DNA of 64,000 nucleotides from Thiomicrorhabdus sp. Kp2 (GTDB lineage: Bacteria; Pseudomonadota; Gammaproteobacteria; Thiomicrospirales; Thiomicrospiraceae), in assembly GCF_000478585.1 (NCBI RefSeq), contig NZ_ARWI01000001.1, positions 1,860,001 to 1,924,000 on the forward strand, read 5' to 3'. Under the pieces are notes generated by a model. That model saw only the letters and a program-made list of their open reading frames with translations, was not told where the DNA came from and searched no databases. Positions 6,680 through 61,716 of the stretch are shown in pieces (position 1 is the stretch's first letter; the number at the start of each line of letters is the position of its first letter). The position numbers and the translations under genes were made by a program.

Positions 6680-7470
6680 TATTAATTAGTTATTGGGATT
6701 TAGCCAGCCTCTCTGTACTGGTCTTACTCTTGGGCATTTTTCTGTGGTTAAGCGGTTTTAATAAAGTAAAAGAGCTGTGGATTGCCACCGCCAGAATGGT
6801 GGTGCAACTCCTTTTTATGGGCGTATGGCTCAGCTATGTGTTTTATGCCGATAACCCACTGTGGATTGTTTTAGTGGGAATCATTATGCTCACCGCGGCG
6901 GGCTATGAAATCACTAAACGTCAGCAGTATCGCTTTAAAAAACTAAACGGGCTCTTGGTTGGTTTTTTAGCACTTTCCATGACGTCATTGGTGCTGTTGA
7001 TTGGTGTGTTAACCATTATTATTCAACCAAGTCCGTGGTACGAACCACAATATGCGATTCCGCTTTTAGGCATGTTATTAGGTAATAGTATGACCGCAAT
7101 TGGTTTAGGGTTAGATACCTTAACCCGCAATGCGGTGCAATCCAAAGCCAAAATCGAAGCGCAATTAGCCTTGGGCAAAACCGCCAAGCAGTCCATGAGT
7201 TTTATTCGCCAACAGAGTTTACATTCGGCGATGATTCCAGTGATTAATATGTTGGTAGCCGCAGGAATCATCTCTCTACCAGGGATGATGACAGGGCAGA
7301 TTTTAGCAGGTGCAGACCCTATGGAAGCTGTGAAATACCAAATTATGATTATGCTTTTAATCGCCACTTCAACAGGTTTTGGTACGTTAATTGCCGTCAA
7401 TATGGCATGCCGAAAATTGTTTGATTCACGCCAGCGTCTTAATCTTGAAATCTTGCAAAAGCAAAAATAA
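6676..7470 (+). CDS. fetB: UPF0014 membrane protein, FetB/YbbM type iron exporter permease
   Basis: A 264-residue inner-membrane protein with about seven hydrophobic segments (for example LASLSVLVLLLGIFLWLSGF and MIPVINMLVAAGIISLPG). It carries the family hallmark stretch GLGLDTL, LALGKTAKQS and ISLPGMMTGQILAGADP. The ATG overlaps the stop codon of fetA, so they are translationally coupled. Known FetB proteins export iron; here that is by homology. No terminator is evident in the 138-base AT-rich gap that follows. Confidence 0.88.
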   Translation: MILISYWDLASLSVLVLLLGIFLWLSGFNKVKELWIATARMVVQLLFMGVWLSYVFYADNPLWIVLVGIIMLTAAGYEITKRQQYRFKKLNGLLVGFLALSMTSLVLLIGVLTIIIQPSPWYEPQYAIPLLGMLLGNSMTAIGLGLDTLTRNAVQSKAKIEAQLALGKTAKQSMSFIRQQSLHSAMIPVINMLVAAGIISLPGMMTGQILAGADPMEAVKYQIMIMLLIATSTGFGTLIAVNMACRKLFDSRQRLNLEILQKQK

Positions 7471-7608
7471 TTTAAAATAAATAAATCTTCAATAAATCGC
7501 TAATAAATTGATTTAAATGAAGAATATCCGCTGATATAAAATCAAAGTAACGTTTTATTTATGATAAATTGAAAGCGTAATTTATCCCTTTCAATTAGGA
7601 GAAGTAAC

Positions 7609-8061
7609 ATGCCAGCAAGATTAAAAGACCTCGTTTCTGCCGCTAAAGCCAATATTAAAGAAGTCACCACCTCAGAAGCCAAAGACCTATTTAAATGTGG
7701 TGGCTACAAACCGCTTGATGTACGTGAACCAGCCGAATACCTAGATGGCACTATTCCTATGGCGCTACATGTACCACGCGGCATGCTAGAGCCGATGTGT
7801 GATAAATGTTACGAAGGCCACAGCGGTGAGCTAGCCGATTTAAACCAAGGCTGGGTGGTATTCTGTTTATCGGGCGGGCGAGGCGCGTTAGCGGTAGATA
7901 CCATGGTAAAAATGGGCTACACCAATGTGGTGAACTTAGCGGGTGGTTTTAATGCCTGGAAAGAGTGTAATGGCGATATCACCATTCCACCTGTCGATAA
8001 CGGATTAATCCGCCTAGACCACCCATGGAACCCAGGATTTCAAGAAGGCAATGTCTGTTAA
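7609..8061 (+). CDS. Rhodanese-like sulfurtransferase domain protein
   Basis: A 150-residue single-domain rhodanese, probably cytosolic because no signal peptide is seen. It has LDVREPAEYLDGTIPMALHVPRG (shown here by its blocks LDVRE and GTIP), active-site loop CLSGGR with Cys86, and the C-terminal AGGFNAWK motif. Two extra cysteines (MCDKCYEG) lie midway. Rhodaneses move sulfane sulfur to cyanide, thiols or carrier proteins, and small ones of this kind are common in sulfur-oxidising bacteria. A clear AGGAG ribosome site precedes ATG 7609. It stands alone, with the tandem repeat directly downstream. Confidence 0.9.
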   Translation: MPARLKDLVSAAKANIKEVTTSEAKDLFKCGGYKPLDVREPAEYLDGTIPMALHVPRGMLEPMCDKCYEGHSGELADLNQGWVVFCLSGGRGALAVDTMVKMGYTNVVNLAGGFNAWKECNGDITIPPVDNGLIRLDHPWNPGFQEGNVC

Positions 8062-8094
8062 TTGTGAGCGAAGGGACGGTACCCTTTAGTCAGT

Positions 8095-8106
8095 ACCAGG
8101 CCTGGT
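8095..8106. repeat. Iterated palindrome ACCAGGCCTGGT, copy 3
   Basis: Exact copy at the left edge of tandem unit 1. Confidence 0.95.
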
Positions 8107-8389
8107 AAATTTGAATTTTGATAATTCAAAAACACCTATCATTGCGAGAAAGCAAGATATTAAAAACACCTGTCATTGCGAGTCACGCAGTGACGTGGCA
8201 ATCCATGACAATCCATGGCGAATATTGCATTGGCCTTGGGAGATTGCCACGCCTTCGGCTCGCAATGTCTACTCATAAACACCCACCGTCATTCCCGTGC
8301 TTGACTCGGGAATCTCCAAAAGGGGGTATAAGAATTATTAGGTCGAGCTGGATAATGACGTGTTGGGGTTGTTTATTGAATTAGAGGAT

Positions 8390-8401
8390 ACCAGGCCTGG
8401 T
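8390..8401. repeat. Iterated palindrome ACCAGGCCTGGT, copy 4
   Basis: Exact copy at the junction of tandem units 1 and 2. Confidence 0.95.
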
Positions 8402-54998: not shown

Positions 54999-57074
54999 TC
55001 ACGTGAGTGGTTTTCGCACCAGTTTTGTAATTACGGTTTTGGGTTGAGAGTCGTTAGTTTGGCTCTCTGTTTGCATAATAAATCGGCAACGCTCGCCTGT
55101 TGGTGTGATAACGGTTAGATCGTCAACTTCAGCGGTAGAGGCCATTTTATGGCGTGCATAGTGAGAACCGTATTGACGTGGTGGAAGCGTTTCATTGATG
55201 AATTTTTCAATGTTTGCAGAGCCTTGAATATCACCAAAATCAGAAGCAGTTGACCACACCGCTTGTGGATGAAATAGCTTCGCAGCACTGCTACTATCTC
55301 GTCTATCCACGCAGTCAAGAAACTGCATTAACAGTAAACGTTTAGAGTTACGAGCAGCATAATGAGTATGTAGTAAGTGATGAGCTTTGGCTGAATTGGG
55401 TTGCTCTAATTCTGTTGCATAGAGTTTTTGAATGTCTTGGTTTTCGTAGGAGCGTCTACGAGGGGTATTTTGGTCGATGTTATAAATCGCCTGCATACGT
55501 TTTTCAAGAATAAGTGGGTCCATAGACTTGGGTTCTCCACCTCCGCCTAGGCAACCCCCTACACAGGCCATGACTTCAATCGCTACATAGTCATCCCGCC
55601 AGTTTTCAGTTTCAAGCATCTGCTGTGCGGTGGCAATGCCATTACAAATGGCGACCTTGCCTACGCCTGGAATCTCGGCTTCTTTAACCGCCAGGTTTAC
55701 GCCACGCATTTGATGCCAATCCAAAGGCATAGAATCTTCTTGGCCAATCAAGTGGGCGGCTGTTCGTACCACGGCTTCCATCACTCCGCCTGACGCCCCA
55801 AAAATCTGGGCGGCTCCTGTACTTTCACCTAGTGGATTGTCAAATTCCGCATCTTCAGACAAAGCACCAAATGCAATGCCACGAGCCTTAATCATTCTTG
55901 CCAGTTCACGGGTGGTTAATACATGGTCAATATCACCAGCAACACCAGGGCGTTGCGATTCATCTTTTTTGGCGGTACAAGGCATGACACTCACCACATA
56001 GGGTTCTACTTGACCGTTTGCAAACTCACCGCCTAATGAACGAGCAAAAGCGCCGCGTTTGGTTAAGGCGCCATGCATTTGTTGTGGAGATTTGGTGGTA
56101 CTCAAATGAGGTAATAAGTCAGGACGATTGATTTCTAGCCAGTTCACCCAGCCAGGGCAGCAGGAGGTGAATAGGGGGAGCTGTTGTTGGTTCTTAAATC
56201 GTGTTAAAAACTCATTAGCCTCTTCCATAATGGTTAAGTCAGCCGCAAAATTGGTGTCGAATACATAGTCAAAACCAAGCTCTCTTAACGCATTAATCAT
56301 GCGGCCTGTGCTCACCGTACCAGGCTTCATGCCAAACTCTTCACTAATGGCTACGCGGGTTGCAGGGGCGACTTGTACCGCTGAGACTCGCCTGTGGGCA
56401 TCCAGCGTATGCAGTACATCATGCCAGTGCGGGGTTTCTATTAAAGCCCCCGTTGGGCAAACTAAAGTACATTGCCCGCAGGAGATACAGTTGGTTTCAG
56501 AAAGGGGTTTATCAAATACGGTAACGGGTAAACGTCCAAATCCATGTTCCGCAAAGCCAATCACATGCTGTTGTTGCCCCGCATCACCGCAGGCTTCAAC
56601 ACATAAACCACACTCCACACATTTGGATAAATCGCGCCAAATGCTGGGGGAGGTATGGTCCATGAGTTTGTGTTCTGGGTGTTCCTCACAACCTCTTGGC
56701 TCTTTAGGCCAAAGGTCTTCCAATTGATATTCGCTTACCAGATTTTGAAACTGGCAAGAGCCGTTTACTTCACAGCGCATACAGTCATTGGGATGACGAG
56801 CCAATAACCACTGCATATCCATTTTGCGAAATTCAATCAGTTCTGGCGTGTCAGTTTCAACAATGTCACCATCCATGGCAGGCGTTTTACAAGCCGCTTT
56901 GGGACGAGCTTTACTACTGATATTCACTAAACATAAGCGACATACGGCATGAGAGGGAATGCGTGGGTAGTAACACAATGTAGGAATATGCACGCCAGCT
57001 TCTCTGGCCGCATCCAATATGGTTGTGCCTTTTTCGACTTCTACCGTGCGTTCATTAATAGTCACTTTAATCAT
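54999..57074 (-). CDS. hydA: Cytosolic [FeFe]-hydrogenase with extra C-terminal NTF2/SnoaL-like domain
   Basis: 691 residues from ATG 57072-57074 (GGGAG ribosome site). N-terminal [2Fe-2S] domain (Cys34, 45, 48, 62); His-ligated cluster (His94, Cys98, 101, 107); two [4Fe-4S] sets (Cys152, 155, 158, 162 and Cys196, 199, 202, 206). The H-cluster domain has TSCCPGW (Cys305 as proton-relay residue, Cys306 as ligand), MPCTAKKDE (Cys366) and MACVGGCLGGGGEP (Cys504, Cys508). A small-subunit-like segment (RRRSYENQDIQKLY to HTHY, about 538-572) follows. Residues about 576-691 are extra and resemble an NTF2/SnoaL fold (FLDCVDRRDSSSAAKLF). No signal peptide, and no hydEFG in this window. Confidence 0.93.
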   Translation of the reverse strand: MIKVTINERTVEVEKGTTILDAAREAGVHIPTLCYYPRIPSHAVCRLCLVNISSKARPKAACKTPAMDGDIVETDTPELIEFRKMDMQWLLARHPNDCMRCEVNGSCQFQNLVSEYQLEDLWPKEPRGCEEHPEHKLMDHTSPSIWRDLSKCVECGLCVEACGDAGQQQHVIGFAEHGFGRLPVTVFDKPLSETNCISCGQCTLVCPTGALIETPHWHDVLHTLDAHRRVSAVQVAPATRVAISEEFGMKPGTVSTGRMINALRELGFDYVFDTNFAADLTIMEEANEFLTRFKNQQQLPLFTSCCPGWVNWLEINRPDLLPHLSTTKSPQQMHGALTKRGAFARSLGGEFANGQVEPYVVSVMPCTAKKDESQRPGVAGDIDHVLTTRELARMIKARGIAFGALSEDAEFDNPLGESTGAAQIFGASGGVMEAVVRTAAHLIGQEDSMPLDWHQMRGVNLAVKEAEIPGVGKVAICNGIATAQQMLETENWRDDYVAIEVMACVGGCLGGGGEPKSMDPLILEKRMQAIYNIDQNTPRRRSYENQDIQKLYATELEQPNSAKAHHLLHTHYAARNSKRLLLMQFLDCVDRRDSSSAAKLFHPQAVWSTASDFGDIQGSANIEKFINETLPPRQYGSHYARHKMASTAEVDDLTVITPTGERCRFIMQTESQTNDSQPKTVITKLVRKPLT

Positions 57075-57405
57075 AGTTTTCTCCCAGTAATGATTCAAGC
57101 CGATTGGCTTGTTTATACCAGGTACGGGGCGGTATAGACTGGTATAGGGCTGAATTGAGTATTACATATTAATGGTGAATTAGAAAGTAGAAGCTTTATC
57201 ATTACAGGTCAATCAAAGAGGGCTGATTAATTGACCAGGCCTGGTAAATTGCTATTCGTTCTTGCCAGCTCACTATCAATGCCAGCAGTGAAAAAGAAGA
57301 TAAATGTGGTGTTAGTAATAGAGGCGGGTGTTCTAGTTTATTGATGTACGTAATAATACTTGTTATTATGTCGGATAATCGTTGGCATTTAAGGTAGGAG
57401 GTGGT
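57075..57405. other. Intergenic region between hydA and the SANT-like gene
   Basis: 331 bp with the hydA promoter side and one exact palindrome at 57234. A possible 71-codon frame on the minus strand is not convincing. GGTATAGACTGGTATAG is a short local direct repeat. Confidence 0.5.
57234..57245. repeat. Iterated palindrome ACCAGGCCTGGT, copy 18
   Basis: Exact copy in the gap between divergent hydA and the SANT-like gene. Confidence 0.95.
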
Positions 57406-57804
57406 ATGCAGCAAAAAGAAGTAATTTCAATAATAGAAGGTTTAGCAAATGGCGTTAATCCGATTACGGGTGAAATTTTACCCAGCACTTCACCTTACAA
57501 TCACCCTGATGTGATTAGAGCGCTGTTTCACGCAATTAACCTTATTCCTAAAGTTAGAAAGCCTAAACAAACGCTAGCGCAGAAACAGCAGGCTAATATT
57601 GAAAAAGGGTTACCTCAAAATTATGGTTTACCTTGGAATCAAACAGATATTGATTCTGTTATTCAACAGTTTAACGAAAACATAGCGATTCACCTTATAG
57701 CTGATCAGTTTTGCCGTAAACCACGTTCAATTATTGGCTTATTAAATAAGCAGGGTGTTATAACCGATGAACAAGCTTCACTGATGTCGCAGAGTTATAA
57801 ATAG
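57406..57804 (+). CDS. Small protein with SANT/Myb-like C-terminal helix-turn-helix
   Basis: 132 residues from ATG 57406, supported by a strong AGGAGG site. The N-terminal part (EVISIIEGLANGVNPITGEILP, NHPDVIRALFHAI) resembles the short VNP-TGE segment found beside or inside some helicase-like proteins. The C-terminal part (GLPWNQTDIDSVIQQF to FCRKPRSIIGLLNKQGVI) has the W-x-x-x-D and R-x-x-x-I pattern of bacterial SANT-like DNA-binding repeats. I infer a small nucleic-acid-binding protein of unknown role. It is divergent from hydA and convergent with the AEC permease. Confidence 0.7.
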   Translation: MQQKEVISIIEGLANGVNPITGEILPSTSPYNHPDVIRALFHAINLIPKVRKPKQTLAQKQQANIEKGLPQNYGLPWNQTDIDSVIQQFNENIAIHLIADQFCRKPRSIIGLLNKQGVITDEQASLMSQSYK

Positions 57805-60401: not shown

Positions 60402-60459
60402 GTAAAACTATCCTTATGATAAAATTAGTAACCATGTCCAATCTTGGGTAACATTGTTT

Positions 60460-61716
60460 ATGAAAAGCTATTACTCACTTTCAGAAACCGCAGAACTGCT
60501 TTCAGTCTCAAAAAAGACATTACGTCGTTGGGATGAAAATGGCAAATTAAAATCAATTAGATTACCTAATAAATATAGAATTTATACACCAGAATCTTTA
60601 AAAGAACTTACTATGGGTAAAAGCATTTTTGAAATTGACGTCATTGACGAAAACCACTATACACCAATCAAACCTTATCATGTTCTCGAGCTTTTTGCAG
60701 GAGCAGGAGGTTTAGCATTAGGTTTAGAGAAGTCTGGCTTGCATTGTACAATGCTTAATGAAATAGATAAGTGGGCATGCCAAACTCTTAGGGAAAACCG
60801 TCCGAATTGGAATGTAGTTGAAGGGGATGTTTCACAAGTCTCTTTTAAAGAATACAAAGGTAAAGTAGATATTGTCACTGGGGGGTTTCCTTGTCAATCT
60901 TTCAGTTATGCAGGTAAAAAATTAGGTTTAGAAGATGCACGTGGAACACTTTTTTATGAATTTGCTCGTGCGGTTAAGGAAGTTGAGCCTTTAATTTGCG
61001 TTGGTGAAAATGTTAAAGGCTTAACAAGTCATGATGGTGGAAAAACTTTAGAATCAATGATTCAAATATTAGATGAACTTGGCTACGATGTTTTAGAGCC
61101 CAAAGTTTTAAAAGCAGCTTATTTCAATGTGCCACAAAAAAGAGAGCGTCTGTTTTTAGTTGGTGTAAAAAAAGGTTGTATTATACCATTTCAATATCCT
61201 CTGCCAAATCCTGAAATGCTACCTTTAAAACTGGCTTTAAAAGCAGGCGAACTCTACCCTACAGATGTACCAAAATCTCCTGGGCAATCTTACCCTGGCC
61301 GTAAAAAAGAAATAATGGATATGATTCCTCCAGGTGGGTATTGGAGAGATTTGCCCGAAGACATACAAAAAGAGTATATGCTTAAAAGCTATTATTTGGG
61401 TGGTGGTAAAACAGGTATGGCAAGAAGGATTTCATGGGATGAGCCTTGCCTCACTTTAACAACATCACCAGCGCAAAAACAAACAGAACGATGTCACCCA
61501 GATGAAACTAGACCTTTTACAGTCAGAGAGTATGCCCGTATCCAAACTTTTCCTGATGATTGGAAGTTTATGGGTAGTATCAATCAGCAATATAAACAAA
61601 TAGGTAATGCCGTTCCTGTCAATTTAAGTTATGCGCTTGGTAAGGAATTAGTAAGAGCTCTAAATAATTACTTCATAAGGGAAGAAATTAAAGAAAGATT
61701 TCAAAATTCAGCTTAG
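60460..61716 (+). CDS. Cytosine-5 DNA methyltransferase with N-terminal MerR-like helix-turn-helix
   Basis: 418 residues from ATG 60460 (TTG 60454 is also possible). Residues 1-50 form a MerR/excisionase-type helix-turn-helix (YSLSETAELLSVSKKTLRRW, then LPNKYRIYTPESLKEL). The methyltransferase follows: motif I ELFAGAGGLALGLE, motif IV GGFPCQSFSYAG with catalytic Cys, motif VI ENVKG, motif VIII QKRERLFLVG, and motifs IX-X (ARIQTFPDDW, KQIGNAVPVNLSYALGKEL). It protects DNA against the divergent endonuclease. The fused HTH probably binds the short intergenic region to set methylase and endonuclease timing, as HTH-fused methylases do elsewhere. The target sequence is not deducible. Confidence 0.93.
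   Translation: MKSYYSLSETAELLSVSKKTLRRWDENGKLKSIRLPNKYRIYTPESLKELTMGKSIFEIDVIDENHYTPIKPYHVLELFAGAGGLALGLEKSGLHCTMLNEIDKWACQTLRENRPNWNVVEGDVSQVSFKEYKGKVDIVTGGFPCQSFSYAGKKLGLEDARGTLFYEFARAVKEVEPLICVGENVKGLTSHDGGKTLESMIQILDELGYDVLEPKVLKAAYFNVPQKRERLFLVGVKKGCIIPFQYPLPNPEMLPLKLALKAGELYPTDVPKSPGQSYPGRKKEIMDMIPPGGYWRDLPEDIQKEYMLKSYYLGGGKTGMARRISWDEPCLTLTTSPAQKQTERCHPDETRPFTVREYARIQTFPDDWKFMGSINQQYKQIGNAVPVNLSYALGKELVRALNNYFIREEIKERFQNSA

Follow-up and report, generated by a model that had tools for sequence, protein, structure and literature searches.

Closest described relatives of HydA-NTF2

To our knowledge, the maturases HydE, HydF and HydG (HydEFG) are indispensable for [FeFe]-hydrogenases, and we know of no other route to the CO/CN/dithiolate site. 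Besides the catalytic enzymes, the sensory HydS proteins (groups C and D) carry a PAS or other signalling domain and have lost the cysteine corresponding to C299 of CpI, the Clostridium pasteurianum hydrogenase, and Nar1/NARF of cytosolic Fe-S assembly have a HydA-like fold with no diiron site and a role in Fe-S delivery. The described systems closest to the protein reported here, HydA-NTF2, are group A enzymes of the M3/A6 type, i.e., the HydABC complexes of Thermoanaerobacter kivui (8a6t) and Acetobacterium woodii (7q4w) and CpI (4xdc), to which it is 42, 39 and 35% identical, respectively, in the Foldseek alignments. It shares with them the domains from the [2Fe-2S] domain to the small-subunit end as well as the ligands and the proton path. 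However, HydA-NTF2 differs from this type by an extra NTF2-like domain and family-specific substitutions around the H-cluster, and unlike these systems it comes from a genome in which HydEFG were not found and has no adjoining HydB/HydC.

Parts of the picture are already in print. The [FeFe]-hydrogenase-rubrerythrin chimera CperHydR likewise joins HydA to an accessory domain, but this is a rubrerythrin domain with a diiron site, and in CperHydR the H-cluster is confirmed and H2-dependent H2O2 reduction takes place (PMC11926857). The HydA of Rhodospirillum rubrum, an alphaproteobacterial protein, resembles HydA-NTF2 in coming from a genome without maturases, and it was taken as probably inactive or of a different role (PMC4967309); a few species are described as holding the hydrogenase but not the maturases (PMC3226654). 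In a Thiomicrospira listing, proteins of T. chilensis, T. kuenenii, T. pelophila and H. marinus were classed as putative A1 [FeFe]-hydrogenases (Greening et al. 2015, cited in PMC4744846). The first three of these species took up no H2 in tests with a main gas mix of 2% H2 and 1% O2 and other conditions for non-growing strains; these tests addressed H2 uptake, not H2 production, and the authors leave the functionality of the proteins undecided (PMC4744846). The passages of that paper on the putative A1 proteins mention no lack of HydEFG and no additional domain. T. chilensis carries HydA-NTF2 (locus L038), and the putative A1 proteins of T. kuenenii, T. pelophila and H. marinus probably belong to the same family. 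The original prediction knew of no characterised fusion of this kind. In our search of the open-licence literature, neither the HydA-NTF2 fusion nor the conserved lack of maturases was found described.

HydA-NTF2 is a group A HydA protein with an additional C-terminal domain

The gene lies in a 64-kb stretch of DNA (the window) from a Thiomicrorhabdus genome, which consists of one contig of 2,725,706 bp and is estimated to be 100% complete. A soluble HydA-like protein had been pointed out as unexpected in a presumed sulfur oxidiser, and the genus bears this context out. The reading frame runs on the minus strand from the ATG at 57074-57072 to the stop codon at 54999-55001. In the program-made list of open reading frames the start is placed at an in-frame TTG, 8 codons upstream of this ATG, while a putative ribosome-binding sequence, GGGAG at 57081-57085, supports the ATG at 57074. 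The features are as follows.

54999..57074, minus strand: gene, with stop codon, of the HydA-NTF2 protein of 691 aa (open reading frame and profile matches)
57081..57085, minus strand: GGGAG, Shine-Dalgarno-like (sequence reading)
56847..57074, minus strand: [2Fe-2S] domain, residues 1-76, with C34, C45, C48 and C62 (PF13510, 1.9e-17)
56718..56828, minus strand: His-Cys3 [4Fe-4S] motif, residues 83-119, with H94, C98, C101 and C107 (PF10588, 1.2e-11)
56445..56624, minus strand: two [4Fe-4S] ferredoxin clusters, residues 151-210 (Fer4 families)
55539..56381, minus strand: H-domain, residues 232-512 (PF02906, 8.2e-83)
56148..56168, minus strand: TSCCPGW, residues 303-309, with proton-relay C305 and ligand C306 (aligned with CpI C299 and C300; both cysteines in 59/59 sequences)
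55959..55985, minus strand: MPCTAKKDE, residues 364-372, with ligand C366 and K369, equivalent to CpI K358 (CpI alignment)
55551..55577, minus strand: EVMACVGGC, residues 500-508, with ligands C504 and C508 and M502, equivalent to CpI M497 (CpI alignment)
55350..55511, minus strand: small-subunit-like segment, residues 522-575 (PF02256, Fe_hyd_SSU, 8.9e-21)
55002..55349, minus strand: NTF2/SnoaL-like domain, residues about 576-691 (profiles, AlphaFold2, Foldseek, VIA)

In both sequence and fold, HydA-NTF2 is a group A member of the HydA protein family. It has the TSCCP, MPCxxKKxE and MxCxGGC motifs together with the four H-cluster cysteines, and as a whole protein it scores 433.7 bits with TIGR02512 'FeFe_hydrog_A' of NCBIfam (cut-off 405.95). 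NF040763 (NADH-dependent A6/HydABC) is the top NCBIfam match, yet its 671.1 bits stay under the cut-off of 765. Pfam places Fe_hyd_lg_C over residues 232-512 with 278 bits and also gives Fer2_4, NADH-G_4Fe-4S_3 and Fer4 domains, and it detects no output domain (PAS, HTH, kinase or GGDEF) in the protein. Among solved structures, the best match in sequence is HydA1 from the T. kivui complex (8a6t), and the top Foldseek matches of the full-length model, whose mean pLDDT of 75.6 is moderate, are HydABC (2.5e-43) and CpI (5.8e-38).

For the approximately 115 residues that follow the small-subunit-like end, an NTF2/SnoaL fold had been proposed, and the profiles, the AlphaFold2 model, Foldseek and VIA agree on it: the C-domain is predicted to have the cystatin-like alpha+beta cone of this fold. 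When scanned in isolation, it scores 25.3 bits with SnoaL_4 (cut-off 24) and 23.9 bits with SnoaL_2 (cut-off 27), and both are under cut-off when the whole 691-aa protein is scanned. The match is not a chance one, because SnoaL_2 is found at E<=0.01 in 61 of 62 homologous C-domains (SnoaL_4 in 59 of the 62). The AlphaFold2 model, built from 62 aligned sequences, has a mean pLDDT of 87.5, and Foldseek matches it to ketosteroid-isomerase/NTF2 folds with E from 7.4e-5. In VIA-align, Z reaches at least 8 for 830 of 1000 chains, and the best 50 rows show Z of 11.4-13.1 over 99-116 residues; the fold is one shared with SnoaL, NTF2-like and ketosteroid isomerase proteins, at an identity of 8-22% to these 50 rows. 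A catalytic role of the C-domain like that of ketosteroid isomerase, with its Tyr/Asp set, was considered, but the sequence-profile matches in the PDB have E of 0.11 or worse, cover profile positions 14-67 only and do not demonstrate it. The invariant residues of the domain include D587, D590, R592, W607, T609, R641, H642 and F665.

The fused proteins are found in scattered Pseudomonadota

PF02906 searches, which unlike the peptide-pattern scan described below are unbiased with regard to the fusion, matched 17 of 62 genomes of the host's bacterial family, in three of seven genera, and all 17 proteins have the C-domain. In an even phylum sample, PF02906 was over cut-off in 4 of 398 genomes; three of these carry the fused protein (the window genome, G485 and G539) and the fourth, G746, an ordinary short HydA. 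In an even class sample it was over cut-off in 9 of 369 genomes; leaving aside the window genome and the marginal G205, seven have a clear HydA, and two of these, G042 and G393, are of the HydA-NTF2 type. A scan over 84,980 species, each represented by one genome, yielded 63 loci, all titled Pseudomonadota; as they were found with two C-domain peptide patterns, all of them necessarily carry the C-domain, and 63 is a minimum. Eight of them are family genomes already counted, and 23 have titles bearing neither MAG nor uncultured. The isolates belong to Thiomicrorhabdus, Hydrogenovibrio, Thioclava, Alloyangia, Salipiger, Jannaschia, Lutimaribacter, Janthinobacterium, Pseudoduganella, Rhodoferax and Paraburkholderia, and there is also a Mariprofundus MAG; we take the carriers' genera to be mostly aerobes or facultative. 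No relatives were found in viral contigs, and no fusion in the nine plasmid records covering at least 80% of the query, in which the match stops at residue 572-576.

A quickly computed ML tree places all 67 fused rows on one side of a branch with an SH-aLRT of 100 and a stem of 2.79 changes per site; long branches occur among the 12 ordinary rows, and the joining of two of them to the fused group may be false. From this tree we read the HydA-NTF2 sequences as a separate, monophyletic family.

The active site is conserved in the fused proteins

The H-cluster ligands and the proton-relay cysteine had been judged intact, which the CpI alignment confirms: C306, C366, C504 and C508 align with CpI C300, C355, C499 and C503, and C305 aligns with C299. 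Conservation was assessed in 59 full-length fused sequences (58 distinct). All 16 accessory-cluster ligands, namely the four cysteines of the [2Fe-2S] domain, H94, C98, C101 and C107 of the His-Cys3 motif and the eight cysteines of the two ferredoxin clusters, are present in 59/59, as are the four H-cluster cysteines. The same holds for the equivalents of CpI A230, P231, E279, E282, R286, C299, P324, M353, P354, K358, F417 and M497, and those of S319 and Q325 are kept in 58/59; for the roles of these residues as ligands, in the proton path or in the diiron pocket we rely on what we take to be established in the hydrogenase literature. The proton path (C299, E279, E282 and R286 in 59/59, S319 in 58/59) is complete. 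The view that the protein is no sensor of the HydS type is upheld to the extent that HydA-NTF2 shows neither a signalling domain nor loss of the C299-type cysteine, which is kept in 59/59.

Near the active site, T239, Q423, V505, L509 and E514 are specific to the family; Q423 lies two residues before the F417 equivalent and V505 directly after ligand C504. They are absent from the 12 ordinary HydA sequences used here and in the tree, which are 11 sequences from plasmid records and one from G746, with maturase status checked for G746 only. Six tryptophans (89, 122, 217, 312, 453 and 492) and C477 likewise occur in all 59 fused sequences and in none of the 12 ordinary ones.

The core is under strong purifying selection, with many more synonymous changes than replacements (dN/dS of 0.029-0.183 in 11 pairs). 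In the C-domain the values range from 0.076 to 0.871 in 11 pairs, with the highest in pairs that have very few changes. In 57 sequences, 206 columns are invariant and the mean column identity is 78%. At one of the 63 loci (L074, Oxalobacteraceae strain BJB404, 7272-8396) the frame of the homologue is broken, being open for only 375 aa; this gene looks broken or mis-sequenced.

Maturases are not found in genomes that carry HydA-NTF2

HydG, HydE and HydF were searched for with TIGR03955, TIGR03956 (cut-off 254.6 bits) and TIGR03918 (cut-off 325.55 bits), respectively. In the single-contig genome of the window there was no match to HydG, none to HydE at E<=0.001, and nothing over the cut-off for HydF (best 96.7 bits vs 325.55). 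The original prediction had mentioned only that no maturases were nearby; indeed none adjoins the gene, and beyond that none of the three was found genome-wide. Its expectation that the enzyme should be catalytic is not supported, as the absence of hydEFG, named beforehand as arguing against it, is what the searches of the protein's own genome show. Since the HydEFG required by [FeFe]-hydrogenases were not found, we do not class HydA-NTF2 as a working [FeFe]-hydrogenase.

The carriers gave the same result. HydG was over cut-off in 0/62 family genomes and 0/67 carriers (17 family genomes, 49 further carriers and G539), HydE in 0/66 carriers, and HydF in 0/66 carriers (0/62 family genomes, 17 of them carriers, and 0/49 further carriers). 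Going by their scores and incomplete coverage, and as a group, low matches were taken as presumably other radical SAM proteins in the case of HydE (up to 42.3 bits in 15/66 carriers) and HydG (3.2e-4 in the carrier G434 and 4.7e-6 in the non-carrier G044), and as other GTPases in the case of HydF (up to 106.1 bits; most of the matches listed are confined to roughly the first 170 positions of the 392-position model). The searches do detect maturases: each profile was over cut-off in 1 of 14 control genomes, and Thermotoga maritima was among the matching controls. Of six gammaproteobacteria that have an ordinary HydA, five gave a HydG match over cut-off (G155, G164, G275, G280 and G746, not G373), while the same search gave none over cut-off in four genomes with the fused protein (G393, G399, G485 and G539; the first three are probably loci L090, L031 and L046). 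G205 and G642 had been dropped before this count, given their weak PF02906 matches (for G205 a score of 22.3, barely over the Pfam cut-off of 22.1) and the lack of HydA motifs in their two longest frames. Draft or metagenome genomes make up many of the carriers, and there lone absences carry little weight; the absence counts because the run of absences and the single-contig genome are taken together.

The gene stands alone

As predicted, HydA-NTF2 is encoded by a lone gene, with tamA on one side and an open reading frame without known family on the other, according to the window's reading frames and profiles. No HydB/HydC (NuoF/NuoE-like) genes lie beside it in the window. The open reading frame directly upstream, on the opposite strand (57382-57804, plus strand), encodes 140 aa; its best Pfam E is 0.075 or worse and it has no NCBIfam match. 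Neighbours were clustered across the 63 loci (position relative to the HydA-NTF2 gene known in 59), and families other than HydA-NTF2 itself were confined to 7 loci or fewer; among 130 near neighbours scanned with Pfam, no family had more than 3 members. A conserved partner gene was thus rejected. The families common to at least two of the 130 neighbours include neither a HydB/HydC-type (NuoF/NuoE-like) nor a signalling one.

Upstream of 8/57 genes there are FNR-like sites with at most one mismatch to TTGAYNNNNRTCAA, vs an average of 1.0 in five letter shuffles, which is a weak hint at possible low-oxygen control. An IscR-like pattern (at most two mismatches) occurs in 16/57 upstream regions vs 10.6 in shuffled ones, and Sigma54 and CRP-type sites show no clear excess over letter shuffles upstream of these genes. 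The perfect 12-bp palindrome ACCAGGCCTGGT flanks the HydA-NTF2 gene and was considered as its operator. This was rejected: the window holds 18 exact sites, from 3536 to 57234, and 24 with at most one mismatch vs 0.05 expected, and because of these 24 copies we regard it as an iterated repeat that is not gene-specific. It is likewise present at related loci of Thiomicrorhabdus, Hydrogenovibrio and Thiomicrospira and resembles the iterated palindromes of cyanobacteria. Elsewhere in the window, an EcoO109I-like restriction endonuclease (PF14511; 59682-60401, minus strand) lies beside a C5 cytosine methylase (60454-61716, plus strand) with a fused N-terminal MerR-like HTH; judging by its domains, this methylase may double as a repressor.

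Possible functions of HydA-NTF2

The explanation that we prefer, and to which we give about an even chance, is that HydA-NTF2 is a HydA-derived Fe-S redox enzyme, diiron-free or differently filled, that does not need HydEFG. The ordinary Fe-S assembly system would load its clusters, and the CO/CN-bearing diiron subsite would be missing or replaced. Along the cluster chain, electrons from ferredoxin or an NADH-linked donor would reach the H-domain, whose conserved acid-base chain might support either the binding or the proton-coupled reduction of a small molecule that is not H2. The NTF2-like domain would probably give a binding pocket or a dimer contact. We favour this explanation because HydE, HydF and HydG were not over cut-off in any carrier searched while HydG is present in 5/6 gammaproteobacteria with an ordinary HydA, because the fused rows fall on one side of a branch (SH-aLRT 100) and have their own active-site residues, because the core dN/dS is 0.029-0.183 with no recurrent neighbour, and because T. 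chilensis (L038) consumed no H2 (PMC4744846). It is weakened, however, by the retention of diiron-contact and proton-path residues in 58 or 59 of 59 sequences, where some relaxation would be expected, and also because the cited tests covered H2 uptake only and many carriers are draft or metagenome genomes. Conservation of the pocket residues argues that the pocket is in use, and the absence of maturases that it is not filled by the known route.

The main rival to such a redox enzyme, rather unlikely in our opinion, is a working [FeFe]-hydrogenase that obtains its diiron subsite via an unrecognised route and serves fermentative H2 release or H2 sensing during brief anoxia. Retention of the ligands and of the equivalents of C299, E279, E282, R286, K358, M353, M497 and F417 in 59/59 (S319 and Q325 in 58/59) would be expected of such an enzyme, and the weak excess of FNR-like sites (8/57 vs 1.0 in shuffles) would suit its use under low oxygen. 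However, HydEFG are the sole route to the site that we know of, and no conserved neighbour offers itself as a candidate new maturase. The lack of H2 uptake by T. chilensis (PMC4744846) also speaks against it. Still more doubtful is the broader proposal that these are widespread [FeFe]-hydrogenases of aerobic Proteobacteria whose H-domain is catalytic without HydEFG, either with a diiron site from an unknown pathway, for which the NTF2-like domain would be a built-in cofactor carrier, or with that pocket occupied by another metal/ligand centre.

A sensor or regulatory redox switch, in which the cluster chain and the NTF2-like domain would read the redox state, O2 or H2 without turnover, is improbable. 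A lone gene with a fused accessory domain would fit this role, the NTF2-like fold being a common ligand-binding module and the carriers presumably being mostly aerobes or facultative, but the protein has no output domain (PAS, HTH, kinase or GGDEF), no signalling family is common to at least two of the 130 neighbours, and the C299 equivalent and the small-subunit segment are kept, unlike in sensory HydS. That the gene is a decaying, functionless relic of horizontal transfer, as its patchy occurrence (17/62 family genomes) and the one broken frame among 63 loci might suggest, is very improbable given the core dN/dS of 0.029-0.183, the 206 invariant columns in 57 sequences and the 78% mean column identity.

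Whether or not the redox enzyme that we prefer proves right, a defined clade that includes isolates of Thiomicrorhabdus, Thioclava, Janthinobacterium and Alloyangia has kept the catalytic and wiring apparatus while its maturases were not found. Either the H-domain would perform a second chemistry, independent of an organometallic site, or such a site could be built in a second way. For surveys that equate HydA genes with H2 metabolism this is a warning, as in the class sample the HydA-NTF2 type accounts for two of the seven clear HydA genomes besides that of the window.
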